A DNA stretch of 43,224 nucleotides from an uncultured Lysobacterales bacterium (GCA_947258865.1 CAMYKC010000027.1:1-43224), one strand, 5' to 3'; shown: positions 880 through 8,187, counted from the stretch's first letter. Notes: generated from the sequence alone by a model not told the origin. Program-made: numbers and translations.

Positions 880-1015
880 AACCCAACTTCACAATAGTTA
901 TTGACTCCACTGTGGAAAATGTGGGTGCCGGGACCTGACCGGAAGCGCTCCAAAACACCCGATGCTGTATACTGCGACAAAGCCAAGGACAGACATTAAA
1001 ATATCAGGGACATAT

Positions 1016-4000
1016 ATGGCGCTGTATTTCTCTGTTTCACTTTTTCGGAAACGCATGTATTACCTGTGCGGCTTGGTCTTTCTTTTTCTTTGCACCTCAT
1101 CCCAGGCCCAGCTCGTATGCACCAACGATGTTAACGGGCCGAACGACCCCGCGGGTGACGGCCAGTCTGATATCACTCAACTGTGTATCGATGAGTCCGG
1201 CCTCCCGGCCTCATTTGAGGTTAAATTCTCCTGGGACGATAATTCCTTTTCCGGCGCCAACACGGGTGATGCGTGTGTCCTCTTCGATCTAGATGGAGAC
1301 GCCGCGGGCGATATCGATTACGCGCTGTGCGCCAGCGTGGGCGGCAACCCGGGAAGCCTGGTCGCCGGCCCAACCTTCTATTCCTGCTCGGGTCAGCCTG
1401 ATCGGTGCGGAAATTCGGCGCTGATCGGCGGCGGGGCCAGCTCATGTTCCGGAACGACGGAAAATACCGATCCATTCAGCGGCGGCGACGATTTCCCCGA
1501 GGACACCGTTGTGAATTGCACGGTGGATACCGGCGACATCCCGGCGGGCTGGGTGCGGACCAACTTCTGTTCCTTTCCTTCGTCTCAGCCCAATTCCGAT
1601 CCGAAAGACTGCATTGGCTACCTCGGTGGTGGCTTCATAGAGATCACGAAGAGGGCATTTCCGGATGATGCCGTTTCGGCAGCGACCTCCTTCAGTTTTT
1701 CGGTCTCGGGTACCGGCACCGAACAGGGATCTCCCGTCACGATCAACGAGACAGTGATCGTCAACGGCAACAGCAGCAATGCGATCAGCGTGCCCCAAGG
1801 CGGACCCTACACCGTTGCCGAGGCGGCTCAGGCCGGATGGACCACCACGGAAGCAATGTGCGACGGTGGGACCGTGTCGGGGTCCACCGTTACCGGAATT
1901 ACGGTTGCCGCGAGCAGCACGACTCACTGCGAGTTCAGCAACCTGCGGTCAGGCTCGATTACAATCGTGAAGTCAGCGAGTCCGGCCGACGGCACCGATT
2001 TTTCGTTCAGCGGTGACCTGGGTAGTTTTACGCTCGATGTCGATACATCGCCAACCCTCAGCGACAACATCAGTTTTGACTCTCCGGCCCCCGGAATCTA
2101 CACCGTGGCCGAAGCGGCCACGCCGCCGTTCGTTCTCGACAGCATTGTCTGCGAGGGAGACGACGACAGTGGTTCCGTCGTCGATCTCGGCCAGCGCCAG
2201 GTCGCGATCGATTACGATGCCGCAGAAGGCATCCTGTGTACGTTTACCAACCTCACCGGCGCCGACGTCGCGCTGACCAAAGCGCTGGACACGGCGGGGC
2301 CATACACGGTCGGCCAGACCGTCCAGTACACCCTGGTGGTGAGCAATGGCGGGCCGAGTACGGCGACCGCGGTGACGGTCAGCGACACGCCGACGAACCT
2401 GACGATCGATACCGTCAGCAGCACACCGCTGGGCACCTGCACGGCACTGCCCTGCACGCTGGCCAGCCTGGCCGACGGTGCCAGCGAGACGATTACAGTG
2501 CTGGCGACGATCGATGCGGCGGGCGCCTTCGACAATGTGGCGGCGGCGAACGCGGCCGAGGCGGACCCCGACCCGGGCAACAACACGGACGACAGCGGCA
2601 ACGGTGGGACGGCGGCAGCAGCAGCCGATCCGGTCCTCGGTATCGCCAAACAGGCGGGACCCGTGGTCGACAATTTCGACGGGACCTTCACCACGACGGT
2701 CACGATCACGCTGGAGAACCTCGGCAACGTGGTGTTGCAAGAGGTGCAGGTCAGCGACGATTTGAGTGTCGTATATCCGCTACCGGCCATGTTCAGCGTG
2801 GCCAACGTGACCAGTCCGCTGCTGAGCGCGAACCCCTCGTTCGACGGCGTCAGTGACACGGACTTACTGCTGGGGACCGACGTGCTGGCCGTCGGGCAGC
2901 GGACCACTGTGGCCTTTGATCTGACCTTCGATCCCGATGTGCTCAGCGGGCCCTTCGCGAACTCGGCGAGCGGTCAGGCGGTCGGTCCGGGCGGCGCCCC
3001 GACGAGTGATGTCTCGGACGAGGGCAACACGCCGGATGCCAGCGGAGACGGCGATCCGGGTGGAATCGGAGAAGACGATCCAACTCAGATCGGTTTTGTA
3101 GCGCAACCTCAAATCGGCGTGGCCAAGGCCGCTTCCCCGACGACCGACAATGGCGATGGCACGTTCACCACGACGATCACCTTGCGGGTCGAAAACCTCG
3201 GCAATGTCATTCTGCAAGACCTGCAGATCAGTGATGATCTCAGCGCGGCTTTCCCGGCGCCGGCGACGGTCGTGGTGACCAGCCCGACCAGCCCGACACT
3301 CGACTTAGACGCCGTTTTCGATGGTCTGAGCAATCCGGATCTGCTGCTCGGCACGGACAGCCTCGGCGTGGGGCAGAGCGCGACGGTGAGCTTCAACCTG
3401 ACCTTCGACCCGGCCGGTCTGACCGGACCGTTCAGCAACACGGCGGTCGCCAGCGCCATGTCGCCGGCTGGCGCTCCCACCACCGATCAGTCGGACAGTG
3501 GCAGTGACCCGGATCCCAACGCTGACGGTGATCCCGGTGGTCCCGGGGAAGACGATCCGACGCCCATCACCTTCATCGAGAACCCGGTGCTCGGCGTTGC
3601 CAAGGCGGCCAGTCCGACGACCGACAACGGCGATGGCAGCTTTACGACCACGATCACGCTGACGCTGGAAAACCTGGGCAACGTCACCCTGAATGACGTG
3701 CAGGTCAGCGACGATCTCGGTGCGGCTTTCCCGGCGCCAGCGGCTGTGAGTGTGGCCAATCTGACCAGCCCGTTCCTGAGTCTGAATCCCGCCTACGACG
3801 GTGTCAGCGAGATCGACTTGCTGCTGGGCAGCGACAGCCTGCCGGTCGCGAGCACGGCGACCGTGACCTTTGATATCACATTCAATCCCAACGGCCTTGC
3901 CGGACCGTTCAGCAACACGGCGCTCGGCGATGCCACCGGCCCGGCAGGCACACCGACCAGCGACCGTTCCGATAGCGGTACCGAGACGGACGGCAGCGGT

Positions 4001-7000
4001 GACGGGGATCCGGGCGGTCCGGGAGAGGACGACCCGACCGCAATCATTTTTGTCGAAAATCCGGTAGTCGACATCGCCAAGTCTTCGAGTCCAACGATCG
4101 ACAACCTCGATGGCACTTTTACCACCACCATCACCTTGCTGGTCGAAAACCTGGGTAATGTCGTGCTCAACGATCTGGCCATCACCGACGATCTGACGGC
4201 GACCTTCCCGGCATCGGTGACGTTCGGTGTGACCAACCTGAACAGTGTCGCCCTGACCACCAACCCGGGCTTCGACGGCACTTCTGACACCGATTTGCTG
4301 GCCGGCACCGATGTTCTGCCGGTGGGCGGGTCAGCGACGCTGGCGTTCGACATCACCTTTAATCCCGGGGCCTTGCCCGGGCCGTTCCTCAACACCGCCA
4401 TCGCCAGCGCGGTGGGCCCGGGCGGTGCCAGCACCAGCGACCGCTCGAACTCCGGCAATGACCCGGACCCCAATGACGACGGCGACCCGAGCGTTCCGGA
4501 CGAAGACATCCCAACGCCGATCAGCTATGTGGAACAGCCGGTCCTGGGCGTGGCCAAGGCCGCTTCCCCGACGACCGACAATGGCGACGGCACGTTCACC
4601 ACGACGATCACGGTGACGCTGGCCAATCTGGGCAACGTGCTGCTGAGCGATGTCCAGGTGATCGACGACCTCAGCCTGGCGTTTCCCGCACCATCGACCT
4701 ACACCGTCAGCAACCTGACCAGCGCGACCCTGGCCGCCAACGCTGCGTTCGACGGGGCCGCGATCCCGGCCCTGCTGGCCGGCAGCGACACCCTTGCGGT
4801 CGGGCAGTCGGGCAGCGTGACCTTCGATCTGACGTTCGATCCCAACGGGTTGCCGGGGCCGTTCCTCAACTCGGCGCAGGCCAGCGGCGCCGGGCCCGGG
4901 GGAACCGTGAGCAGCGACCTGTCCGATGCCGGCAGTCAGCCGGATGCCAACGGCAACGGTGATCCGGGCGATCCGGAGGAGAATGATCCGACGGTCATTG
5001 ACTTCGCGGAAAATCCAGTCCTGGGTGTGGCCAAGGCCGTCGGTGCCACGCTCGACAACGGCAACGGCACCTTCACCACGACGGTGACCATCGCGGTACA
5101 GAACCTCGGCAACGTGGTGCTGCAGAATCTGCAGGCAGTCGATGATCTGAGCGCGACGTTCCCGGCTCCGGCGACGTTCACGGTCGACAATGTCTTGAGC
5201 GCTGCACTGACCGTCAATCCCCTGTTCGACGGCGCGGGCGAAACCAATCTCCTCGCGGGCACCGACAACCTGGCGGTTGGCGTGAACGCGCAGGTCAGCT
5301 TCGACATCACCTTCGATCCGCAAACGCTGCCCGGGCCGTTCCTCAACTCGGCCACGGCCGCGGCGCAGAGCCCTGGTGGTGAGACGACGAGCGACCTGTC
5401 TGACAACGGCACGGAAGCGGATGCCAATGGCAACGGCGATCCGGGCGATCCGGAGGAGAATGATCCCAGCCCGATCACCTTTGCCGAGAACCCGGTGATC
5501 GGTGCGGCCAAGACGGCTGAGCCCGCCATCGATCTGGGTGGGGGCAGCTTCCAGACGACCGTCACGCTGACGGTGGAAAATCTGGGCAATGTCGTGCTCA
5601 GTGGCGTGGCCATCAGCGACGATCTCGACGCGGTTATCCCCGCGCCCGCCACCTTCAGCGTGTCGGCGATCGGCAGCACGACACTGACCGTCAATCCGGC
5701 CTTTGACGGCAGTACCGACATCGAGCTGCTGAGCGGCGCCGACAATCTGGCCGTTGGCGAAACCGCGGCGGTGAGCTTTGTACTCACCTTCCAGCCCAAT
5801 GGCGTGGCCGGCCCATTCGACAACGCGGCGATCGCGCAGGCCAGCGGTCCGGGCGGCGGCACCAGTGCCGACCGTTCGGACAACGGCACGACCACCGACA
5901 GCAATGGTGACGGCAATCCCGGCGGGCTCGGCGAAGACGACCCCACGCCGATCAGCTTTGACGCGCAGCCGGTCATCGGCGCTGCCAAGGATGCAACCGC
6001 CTCCATCGACAATGGTGACGGCACCTTTACGACGACCGTGACGGTGGTGATCGAGAACCTGGGCAACGTGGTGTTGAGCAATGTCCAGATCAGCGACGAT
6101 CTGCTCACGACCTTCCCGCCACCGGCGACGTTCGTAACCGGCCCGCCGGCCTCATCCAGCCTGAGCGTCAACCCGGGCTTTGACGGGGCCGGCTCGATCA
6201 ACCTGCTGAGCGGGACTGATACGCTGGCGATCGGTGAGACTGCGAGTGTGAGCTTTGAATTGACATTCGCGCCCAACGGCTCTATTGGACCGTTCAGCAA
6301 TACCGCCATCGCCAGCGCAACCGATGCCGGGGGCCAACCGACCTCGGATCGATCGGCCGCCGGCAATGACCCCGACCCCAATGGCGATGGCAATCCCAAT
6401 TTGCCGGGTGTTGAAGACACGCCCACACAAATCGGCTTCACCGAGCGAACCGTCCTCGGTATCGCCAAGGAAGCAGGGCCGGTTACTGACAACTTCGACG
6501 AAACTTTCACTATACCGCTCACCATGTACCTTGAGAATCTGGGCAACGTGGTATTGACGAATGTCCAGGTCAGCGACGATCTGCGCGCGGTCTTTTCTGT
6601 GCCGGCGATCATTATCATCTCTGATTTGGCGAGTCCGGATTTGAGCGTCAATCCGGGCTTCGACGGCGACACCGACATTGATCTTTTGCTGGGAATCGAC
6701 TCTCTCAGCCCCGGCATGACCGCCCAGGTTTCTTTCAGTCTGACGGTAGAGCCAATCGATCAACATGCCCCTTTCATTAACCTTGCCACCGCCAACGCGA
6801 TTACCGCCGCCGGAACGCCGGTTACGGACAGCTCGACCGATGGTAACGATCCCGATCCGGATGGCAATGGCGATCCCAGTGAGATGGATCCTATGTTACT
6901 CCTGATACCGGAGCCTGAGGTTGAAATTCCGACCCTGAACCGGCTGGGTCTATTGTTACTCATCTTGCTGATGAGCGGTATCGGCATGTGGCGCTTGCGT

Positions 7001-7006
7001 TTCTGA
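1016..7006 (+). CDS. Giant secreted repeat protein with IPTL-CTERM sorting signal
   Basis: Predicted 1996-residue cell-surface or exported protein. ATG 1016 is preferred because AGGGA at 1006-1010 sits just upstream; 962 (no ribosome site) and 1055 are alternatives. Order of parts: signal peptide ending SSQAQ; a Cys-containing N-terminal region of about 190 residues; two prealbumin-like (SpaA/collagen-binding-B type) segments marked by TVAEAA and CEFSNL/CTFTNL; one DUF11-like domain from about residue 416 (VGQTVQYTLVVSNGGPSTA); nine 159-residue repeats from residue 539; then IPTLNRLGLLLLILLMSG followed by WRLRF. The tail has the IPTL motif, a hydrophobic helix and basic residues, as in IPTL-CTERM proteins, which are sorted by an exosortase. 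Each repeat ends in an Asp-rich stretch (DPDPNxDGDP) that resembles calcium-binding loops. Cysteines occur only before the repeats. A role in adhesion or matrix is inference. Confidence 0.88.
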   Translation: MALYFSVSLFRKRMYYLCGLVFLFLCTSSQAQLVCTNDVNGPNDPAGDGQSDITQLCIDESGLPASFEVKFSWDDNSFSGANTGDACVLFDLDGDAAGDIDYALCASVGGNPGSLVAGPTFYSCSGQPDRCGNSALIGGGASSCSGTTENTDPFSGGDDFPEDTVVNCTVDTGDIPAGWVRTNFCSFPSSQPNSDPKDCIGYLGGGFIEITKRAFPDDAVSAATSFSFSVSGTGTEQGSPVTINETVIVNGNSSNAISVPQGGPYTVAEAAQAGWTTTEAMCDGGTVSGSTVTGITVAASSTTHCEFSNLRSGSITIVKSASPADGTDFSFSGDLGSFTLDVDTSPTLSDNISFDSPAPGIYTVAEAATPPFVLDSIVCEGDDDSGSVVDLGQRQVAIDYDAAEGILCTFTNLTGADVALTKALDTAGPYTVGQTVQYTLVVSNGGPSTATAVTVSDTPTNLTIDTVSSTPLGTCTALPCTLASLADGASETITVLATIDAAGAFDNVAAANAAEADPDPGNNTDDSGNGGTAAAAADPVLGIAKQAGPVVDNFDGTFTTTVTITLENLGNVVLQEVQVSDDLSVVYPLPAMFSVANVTSPLLSANPSFDGVSDTDLLLGTDVLAVGQRTTVAFDLTFDPDVLSGPFANSASGQAVGPGGAPTSDVSDEGNTPDASGDGDPGGIGEDDPTQIGFVAQPQIGVAKAASPTTDNGDGTFTTTITLRVENLGNVILQDLQISDDLSAAFPAPATVVVTSPTSPTLDLDAVFDGLSNPDLLLGTDSLGVGQSATVSFNLTFDPAGLTGPFSNTAVASAMSPAGAPTTDQSDSGSDPDPNADGDPGGPGEDDPTPITFIENPVLGVAKAASPTTDNGDGSFTTTITLTLENLGNVTLNDVQVSDDLGAAFPAPAAVSVANLTSPFLSLNPAYDGVSEIDLLLGSDSLPVASTATVTFDITFNPNGLAGPFSNTALGDATGPAGTPTSDRSDSGTETDGSGDGDPGGPGEDDPTAIIFVENPVVDIAKSSSPTIDNLDGTFTTTITLLVENLGNVVLNDLAITDDLTATFPASVTFGVTNLNSVALTTNPGFDGTSDTDLLAGTDVLPVGGSATLAFDITFNPGALPGPFLNTAIASAVGPGGASTSDRSNSGNDPDPNDDGDPSVPDEDIPTPISYVEQPVLGVAKAASPTTDNGDGTFTTTITVTLANLGNVLLSDVQVIDDLSLAFPAPSTYTVSNLTSATLAANAAFDGAAIPALLAGSDTLAVGQSGSVTFDLTFDPNGLPGPFLNSAQASGAGPGGTVSSDLSDAGSQPDANGNGDPGDPEENDPTVIDFAENPVLGVAKAVGATLDNGNGTFTTTVTIAVQNLGNVVLQNLQAVDDLSATFPAPATFTVDNVLSAALTVNPLFDGAGETNLLAGTDNLAVGVNAQVSFDITFDPQTLPGPFLNSATAAAQSPGGETTSDLSDNGTEADANGNGDPGDPEENDPSPITFAENPVIGAAKTAEPAIDLGGGSFQTTVTLTVENLGNVVLSGVAISDDLDAVIPAPATFSVSAIGSTTLTVNPAFDGSTDIELLSGADNLAVGETAAVSFVLTFQPNGVAGPFDNAAIAQASGPGGGTSADRSDNGTTTDSNGDGNPGGLGEDDPTPISFDAQPVIGAAKDATASIDNGDGTFTTTVTVVIENLGNVVLSNVQISDDLLTTFPPPATFVTGPPASSSLSVNPGFDGAGSINLLSGTDTLAIGETASVSFELTFAPNGSIGPFSNTAIASATDAGGQPTSDRSAAGNDPDPNGDGNPNLPGVEDTPTQIGFTERTVLGIAKEAGPVTDNFDETFTIPLTMYLENLGNVVLTNVQVSDDLRAVFSVPAIIIISDLASPDLSVNPGFDGDTDIDLLLGIDSLSPGMTAQVSFSLTVEPIDQHAPFINLATANAITAAGTPVTDSSTDGNDPDPDGNGDPSEMDPMLLLIPEPEVEIPTLNRLGLLLLILLMSGIGMWRLRF
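2630..6925 (+). repeat. Nine tandem 159-residue coding repeats
   Basis: Repeats begin at the codon for P/T in the motif PVLGVAK-like: 2630, 3107, 3584, 4061, 4538, 5015, 5492, 5969 and 6449. Seven successive spacings are exactly 477 bases and the last is 480. Each unit reads xVLGxAK, then DNxDGTFTTTxTxxxxNLGNVxL, xxxDDL, FDGxxxxxLLxGxDxLxVG, GPFxNxAxA, and an Asp/Gly-rich linker ending in E(D/N)DPTxI. The ninth unit ends exactly at the IPTL motif. Confidence 0.93.
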
Positions 7007-7130
7007 GGCGCAGCCGAAAAAAGTGCTGCTCGAACGCCGTCCATACGTAGGCGGGAGCAGGCAGGCGAGACTCCTTAACCAGTCCTTATTCCACATGCTC
7101 CCTCCCCGCGAGCGGTATACGCTTTATGCC

Positions 7131-7571
7131 ATGAACCGTTCCTTCCGACCCGCATTAATCGGTGTAATCGCTGCGATCGCAATCACGACCAGCATGGACG
7201 CCAGCGGTTATACCACCTTCAGCGCCCTGCCCCTGCTTCCGCTAACCGCCATTTTCTGGTACCTGCAGAAATTTTCCCGCCAGGAGATGGGGCTGACCTG
7301 GGGCAATCAGCAAAGCTATGTAGTCGCCGTGGCCTATCCCGTCATCGTTCTGGGGTTGATTGCAGGTTTTGCTCTCGCAGCTGGAGCTACCGACACCAGC
7401 GGAGCTGACTGGAATAAAACTTTCCTCAACATAGCGCTGATGAGTTCAACTGGTGTGCTAATGGGCATTCTCACCGAGGAAGGATTTTTCCGGGGCTGGC
7501 TATGGGCGGCGCTACGGCGGGCGGCTCGAACGTCTGACCCCAGAGATGTTCCACCATCACGTATGAAGTGA
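7131..7571 (+). pseudogene. CPBP-family intramembrane protease, 3' truncated
   Basis: Residues 1 to about 133 from ATG 7131 look like a normal CPBP (Abi/CAAX-protease-like) membrane protein: several hydrophobic helices and the first catalytic motif, EEGFFRGWLWAAL. Family members continue for another 80 to 100 residues with the FxxxH and HxxxN motifs. Here the frame passes at about 7525-7535 into sequence that is the antisense of a CoA-transferase and stops at 7571 after a foreign tail (TSDPRDVPPSRMK). The missing motifs supply metal or catalytic residues, so the product is probably inactive. An earlier in-frame ATG at 7095 or 7023 is possible but lacks a clear ribosome site. Alternative: an assembly chimera at the junction. 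Confidence 0.75.
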
Positions 7572-8181
7572 GGGACTCGAACATCGGCACCTCGATCTCC
7601 TGACCCTGACCGCTGCGCTCCTTGTGGAACAGTGCCGCGAGCACAGCTTGTACCACAAACAGGCCGGTCGTCTTGTCCGCCACGACCGTCGGCAGGTAAC
7701 GGGGTTCACCCAGCACCATCTCGTTCAAAGCGGCGATGCCGCTGGCGGCCTGGATGGAATCGTCCAGCGCGCCCTTGTTACCGTAAGGACCCTTTTAGCT
7801 GTAACCATATGTTGCACAGTAGATGATCTCGGGATTTACATCCCTGACCGCCTCATAGTCCAGCCCCAGTCTTTGCATGGCGCCTGGCCTGAAGTTATGC
7901 ACAAGGACATCGGCTTCCTCGATAATTTTCAGCGCGGCCGCCTTACCGCGCTTCGACTTCAGGTCCAGCACCAGGCTGCGTTTGTTGCGGTTGCAGCCAA
8001 CGAAAAGCGAAGCCATGTCGGGGTGGTTTCGATAGGGTCCCAGGTTACGATTCGTATCGCCGGAAGGCGGCTCGATCTTAATAATGTCCGCGCCCGGGTC
8101 ACCCAGCATCTGGCAGGCATAAGGACCCAGGACCACGCTGGTCATCTCGACAATTTTTACGCCATCCAGGGGTGCGGTCAC
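7471..8181 (-). pseudogene. CaiB/BaiF family III CoA-transferase, interrupted and truncated
   Basis: Starts with GTG at 8181. Residues 1-128 are a good class III CoA-transferase N-terminus: LDGVKIVEMTSVVLGPYACQ, LGDPGADIIKIEPP, the NRNKRSLVLDLKS segment with the usual catalytic Asp, and EADVLVHNFRPGAMQRLGLDY. An in-frame TAA (7795-7797) follows IIYCATYGYS. The same frame then continues as KGPYGNKGALDDSIQAASG and VADKTTGLFVVQAVLAALFH, up to EHLWGQTFEPP. After about 7525 the sequence becomes the antisense of the CPBP gene. Family members have about 400 residues, so roughly the last 40 percent is missing. It starts 6 bases after the upstream amidohydrolase stop, which suggests a former operon. 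Confidence 0.85.
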
Positions 8182-8187
8182 GGCCCT

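Follow-up and report, generated by a model that had tools for sequence, protein, structure and literature searches.

A putative isopeptide-locked, surface-anchored stalk of nine long CLIPPER-type domains encoded by an uncultured Lysobacterales bacterium

The question raised by this locus is what kind of protein is built from nine tandem units of almost equal length and clearly different sequence, and what the even spacing of such units means. The window analyzed here, a stretch of 43,224 nucleotides from an uncultured Lysobacterales bacterium (GCA_947258865.1 CAMYKC010000027.1:1-43224), carries an uninterrupted reading frame on its plus strand (962-7006, 2014 codons), the translation of which was divided into the following parts.

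962..7006, + strand: gene of the putative stalk protein; the frame opens at 962, and the likelier start is the ATG at 1016, with CAGGGA just before it
1016..1111, + strand: signal peptide, called by inspection, MALYFSVSLFRKRMYYLCGLVFLFLCTSSQAQ
1112..1639, + strand: N-terminal Cys-rich domain, candidate tip/binding domain, without a Pfam match
1640..1951, + strand: first SpaA_4 (CnaB-like) domain, 33.6 bits (cut-off 27.3), candidate isopeptide residues K230, E287 and N327
1958..2251, + strand: second SpaA_4 (CnaB-like) domain, candidate isopeptide residues K337, E384 and N430
2255..2596, + strand: ordinary DUF11 (CLIPPER) domain, single copy before the array, candidate triad K440, D475 and N525
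2627..3103, + strand: long unit 1, K563, D599 and N667
3104..3580, + strand: long unit 2, K722, D758 and N826
3581..4057, + strand: long unit 3, K881, D917 and N985
4058..4534, + strand: long unit 4, K1040, D1076 and N1144
4535..5011, + strand: long unit 5, K1199, D1235 and N1303
5012..5488, + strand: long unit 6, K1358, D1394 and N1462
5489..5965, + strand: long unit 7, K1517, D1553 and N1621
5966..6445, + strand: long unit 8, 160 residues (480 bases), the Asp loop being longer by one residue, K1676, D1712 and N1780
6446..6922, + strand: long unit 9, its tail continuing into the anchor, K1836, D1872 and N1940
6926..7000, + strand: IPTL-CTERM sorting tail (IPTL, hydrophobic stretch, basic end), assigned from NCBIfam model scores

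With a probability of roughly 0.8, we read this protein as a secreted, surface-anchored stalk like that of a fibrillar adhesin, in which nine isopeptide-locked long CLIPPER-type domains are joined by Asp-loop linkers and followed by an exosortase H tail. The nine domains, of the DUF11/DUF7507 type with a CnaA-like Ig fold, would form a rod, and the array would hold the Cys-rich domain, the two SpaA domains and the single ordinary DUF11 domain at a distance from the cell. Of the features of fibrillar adhesins, the protein has a signal peptide, a candidate tip domain, the tandem stalk and a probable anchor; surface display and adhesion are inferred. Because domain searches recognized no ligand-binding domain in the protein, the label ‘adhesin’ refers to its architecture only. 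The Cys-rich N-terminal domain is rare, having a single other match in 300 genomes of the order (a 308-residue ORF in genome G045).

The anchor motif LGNV occurs nine times in the array (units spanning 2627-6922), at a spacing of 159 residues seven times and 160 residues once, which matches the seven 477-base spacings and one 480-base spacing reported in the first-pass annotation. Its coordinates and its description of near-equal units that differ clearly in sequence were also confirmed: pairwise protein identity of the window units is 44-67%, and the spacings are exact. Third-codon-position identity is 33-53%, and four-fold-site identity is 0.49 relative to the 0.38 expected for random codons, i.e., synonymous sites are near saturation. 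Given the four-fold value together with the low third-position identity, the units are not fresh duplicates; they are old copies, greatly diverged. Tandem Repeats Finder did not detect the array, as expected from the high divergence of its units.

These values bear on the possibility that the even spacing is a by-product of youth: copied one unit at a time, the array would have had too little time to gather indels. The window units do form one clade in the tree (support 99/99), so the array expanded within this lineage. However, beyond the near-random identity at four-fold sites, the first eight units (the last was left out) show only one distinct indel in ~500 inferred substitutions, whereas the rate pooled from four less regular arrays built of this unit predicts 8.4 (p = 0.003); relative to the array of Limnofasciculus alone, the deficit has p = 0.014. 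Already weakened by these results, the young-array explanation is improbable, and the proposal that strict length has been kept despite sequence drift is upheld by the deficit. An indel deficit is also significant in the 177-residue array of a Bacteroidota genome (p = 2e-6), while in a Saprospiraceae array the deficit by count was not significant. In the preferred reading of an anchored stalk, a founder unit would have been duplicated within the lineage, and the copies would then have diverged under selection that kept their length.

The core of the long unit belongs to a described family. In profile searches, unit 2 matched the whole Pfam model of DUF7507 (PF24346; CLIPPER_2) at 33.2 bits against a cut-off of 27, its residues 1-128 covering model positions 1-104 of 105, and eight of the nine units matched at E <= 1e-3; most single units score near or below the cut-off, e.g., units 1 (23.9 bits) and 7 (26.1 bits). 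The DUF11 cut-off of 24.6 bits was not reached by unit 2 (18.3) or unit 7 (19.3), and hhalign of the unit against an ordinary DUF11 profile gave 94.2% (E 1.2e-7); in this alignment D44 and N112 pair with the Asp and Asn of DUF11. With DUF7507 the long unit shares a Lys near position 8, the K-D-N triad and tandem use in surface proteins, but it has ~24 additional residues between the Asp and the Asn and, beyond the model, an Asp-rich tail of ~31 residues. With DUF11 (PF01345; CLIPPER, structure 9IFR) it shares the CnaA-like sandwich and membership of the same superfamily; DUF11 domains are ~114 residues long and have no Asp tail, whereas the long unit has 159 residues, an Asp tail and no Cys. 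The distance from K to N is 104 in the long unit, relative to 80 in DUF7507 and 91 in DUF11. No Pfam or NCBIfam model spans the long form including the Asp tail. Thus, where DUF11-type repeats had been named as known and the 159-residue form as new, the second point holds in that the long form lacks a model, but the core is that of DUF7507, the sister family of DUF11, and the period varies among relatives (see below). The array is an under-described long variant of CLIPPER (DUF11/DUF7507) and not a new kind of filament. Sequence searches with the whole protein, the DUF11 domain, the unit profiles and the Asp loop gave no credible match in the PDB, the weak matches to filamin and gelation factor being limited to a DNGDGT turn, and a plasmid search returned just one weak match, a ‘SdrD B-like’ protein of Spirosoma.

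AlphaFold2 modeled one unit as a single beta-sandwich (pLDDT 97.2, pTM 0.90) and two neighboring units with a pLDDT of 96.2 and a pTM of 0.86, the latter of which suggests that neighbors are held in a defined relative orientation. The two-unit model supports the earlier idea of a tandem-repeat filament in the form of a beta-sandwich stalk. In a Foldseek search of the PDB with one unit, 9IFR ranked sixth (E 9e-4, probability 1.00, target-normalized TM 0.54). The two-unit matches, to integrins and adaptins, had low TM-scores and reflect generic likeness of Ig sandwiches. Within the predicted unit, the first strand (4-10) contains K8, the third strand (37-44) closes with D44, and the region of the penultimate strand (110-119) contains N112; a Lys in the first strand and an Asn in the penultimate strand is the CnaA-like arrangement as described by Costa et al., 2025 (PMC12617251).

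In that survey, DUF11 was renamed CLIPPER and DUF7507 was renamed CLIPPER_2, and both were predicted to form Lys-Asn isopeptide bonds within the domain, catalyzed by an Asp (Costa et al., 2025; PMC12617251). The crystal structure 9IFR, of one DUF11 domain, shows the bond (K715, D748 and N806), and the domain unfolds at ~80 degrees C compared to ~45 for the K715A mutant; the published triad of DUF7507 is K72-D112-N152 (PMC12617251). The residues of the triad, K8, D/E44 and N112, stand at CnaA-like positions in all nine window units. Among 123 related units from Pseudomonadota, Cyanobacteriota and Bacteroidota, collected as matches to a profile made from the window units and including some from overlapping loci of one gene, K8 is kept in 116/116 aligned cases, an acid (D or E) at position 44 in 122/122 and N112 in 118/118. 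A wider set includes 24 single-copy matches, in which the Lys is kept in 13/14, the acid in 22/24 and the Asn in 19/21; K8, N31, N112, D128, S130 and D137 are invariant across 60 units. This Lys-acid-Asn triad is, as judged from sequence, the signature of a CnaA-like intramolecular isopeptide bond, and each unit is very probably locked by one. In the mechanism that we propose, Lys8 of the first strand would be covalently cross-linked to Asn112 of the penultimate strand of the same domain, with Asp44 as catalyst, and the cross-links would make the rod resistant to heat, proteases and pulling.

The composition of the rod bears on a simpler explanation, that of a plain beta-sandwich spacer without isopeptide bonds, in which folding alone would account for the conserved triad. 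Some DUF11 domains are known to have no such bond (PMC12617251), which gives this explanation some footing. However, K8 is the sole Lys of every window unit, so that the 1432-residue rod has nine Lys, all at unit position 8; it further contains 8 Arg and 192 Asp+Glu and lacks Cys. That a rod almost devoid of Lys keeps this one residue in every unit, together with an invariant acid and Asn at CnaA-like positions, makes the plain spacer very unlikely. The pattern of one Lys per unit recurs in the 177-residue array of Bacteroidota (22/22) and in the arrays of Symploca (5/5), Oscillatoria (3/3) and genome G039 (3/3), and was not found in the Limnofasciculus units or in most Saprospiraceae units. 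The other genes of the window have a Lys content of 3.4%.

The C-terminal tail of the protein scored 22.3 bits against the IPTL-CTERM cut-off of 20.5 in one scoring and 15.8 bits in a whole-protein hmmscan. It resembles the IPTL-CTERM/exosortase H system (TIGR04174/TIGR04177) in combining a C-terminal tail with a matching exosortase in the same genome, and differs in that it reads IPTLNRLG, without the Trp of IPTLxxWG. Exosortase H, which from its NCBIfam family title we take to be the exosortase specific for IPTLxxWG-CTERM, is encoded in the genome (188.9 bits, cut-off 86), as are four other IPTL-CTERM proteins above the cut-off. The stalk protein is thus probably sorted by exosortase H, which would process the tail. 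Neither this tail nor the triad is mentioned in the first-pass annotation.

The presence of an Asp-rich loop at the end of each unit, pointed out in the first-pass annotation, was borne out across the 123 units: D and E make up 33% of columns 125-152 compared to 10.5% of columns 1-124, with D128, S130, G133 and D137 nearly invariant, D/N alternating in 135-143, and E at 149. The loop is kept in single-copy relatives (D128 in 17/18, D137 in 15/17) and in the last units, adjoining the anchor; it therefore belongs to the domain itself and is not simply an inter-unit joint. AlphaFold2 models it with high confidence despite its having no regular structure, and confident irregular loops of this sort are often seen where metal is bound, an indirect sign. 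Calcium binding at the loop is plausible. In our mechanism, the short linkers with their conserved Asp-rich loop would fix the orientation of neighboring domains, probably with a divalent metal such as calcium.

Such a loop could also mean that the rod is an extender of the RTX-adhesin or SiiE kind, stiffened by calcium, its mechanics set by metal at the Asp loops and not by a covalent bond. The extenders of RTX adhesins (MpIBP RII, MhLap and AhLap) and the BIg domains of SiiE are likewise tandem beta-sandwiches that project a tip and have Asp-rich sites at or near their linkers. We know of no K-D-N triad in these proteins. They belong to other sequence families and use type I secretion, so that the resemblance is one of design only, and unit profiles compared with PDB sequences found no credible homology to solved RTX or SiiE extenders. 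The near-invariance of D128, S130 and D137 in the end loop, the strongly acidic rod and the calcium bound in the linkers of RTX extenders (PMC7493085) speak for a metal rod. However, the most conserved feature of the units is the Lys-acid-Asn triad, which a metal rod does not need, the Asp loop also occurs in single-copy units, and the tail is IPTL-CTERM and not a type I secretion signal. A rod governed by calcium alone is thus an unlikely reading, and the isopeptide bond and the metal, as two devices, could coexist in the anchored stalk.

Profile searches found related units in Cyanobacteriota, Bacteroidota, Rickettsiales and other families of the same order, and ~10 arrays were compared, with unit anchors placed by profile alignment. 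The period is 158 four times in Symploca, 158 or 159 in the Saprospiraceae array (15 units), 177 in a Bacteroidota MAG (22 units, one of 178), 160-167 in Limnofasciculus, 159-199 in Rickettsiales, 165 and 179 in G039, and 153 and 164 in Oscillatoria. The special standing given earlier to 159 residues is not supported, as 158 or 177 is held equally strictly elsewhere and other arrays range over 153-199; the fold and the stalk therefore need no 159, and a universal ruler of that length is ruled out. Some arrays do conserve their unit length, but 159 residues is not characteristic of the family, nor is strictness. The units of Symploca, G039 and Oscillatoria, as in the window, each form a clade of their own in the tree, so that each array expands from a founder inside its own lineage and has its own length. 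In several genomes of the order (G039, G040, G044, G051, G162 and G291; loci L091-L097), no other domain stands between the long unit and a hydrophobic, sorting-like C-terminal tail, and this membrane-proximal position may be the ancestral place that was amplified in the window array.

Two of these relatives encode very large frames. The Bacteroidetes genome HKST-UBA127 (L032 2880-15536, and L034) has a 4219-residue open frame that holds at least 22 units; their length is 177 residues, with a single one of 178, and the array is stricter than that of the window. Rickettsiales MAG-126 (L035; genome G305), whose genome is just 1.6 Mb, has a 6280-residue open frame in which the length of the ~24 long units drifts.

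A broader and more tentative reading, to which we give somewhat less than even odds, is that the long units are a distinct CLIPPER subfamily of Pseudomonadota, Cyanobacteriota and Bacteroidota, doubly locked by an isopeptide bond from the conserved, often only, lysine of each domain and by metal at the Asp loop, some of whose arrays would be molecular rulers under strong selection for length at an array-specific value. Before the 2025 survey, only one isopeptide-locked domain outside Gram-positive bacteria had been structurally characterized (PMC12617251). Here, a Gram-negative array presents nine clean single-lysine units with an exosortase-type anchor, and a subfamily over three phyla carries the extra Asp loop. 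Two questions thereby become testable: does a single domain combine a covalent with a metal lock, and what keeps unit length free of drift in some arrays but not in close relatives?

Downstream of the stalk gene, a 182-residue ORF (7023-7571, + strand) is weakly like CPBP/Rce1 proteases (E 0.011) and ends shortly after an EExxxR-like motif (EEGFFRG). On the minus strand, 7513-8187 holds a remnant of a CoA-transferase of family III (CaiB/BaiF-like), two adjoining stretches of which correspond to model positions 1-122 and 126-208 of 366, with an in-frame stop between them and the rest missing; it is apparently a pseudogene or an assembly fault. The 182-residue ORF looks cut short and lies tail to tail with this remnant, as at a deletion junction.
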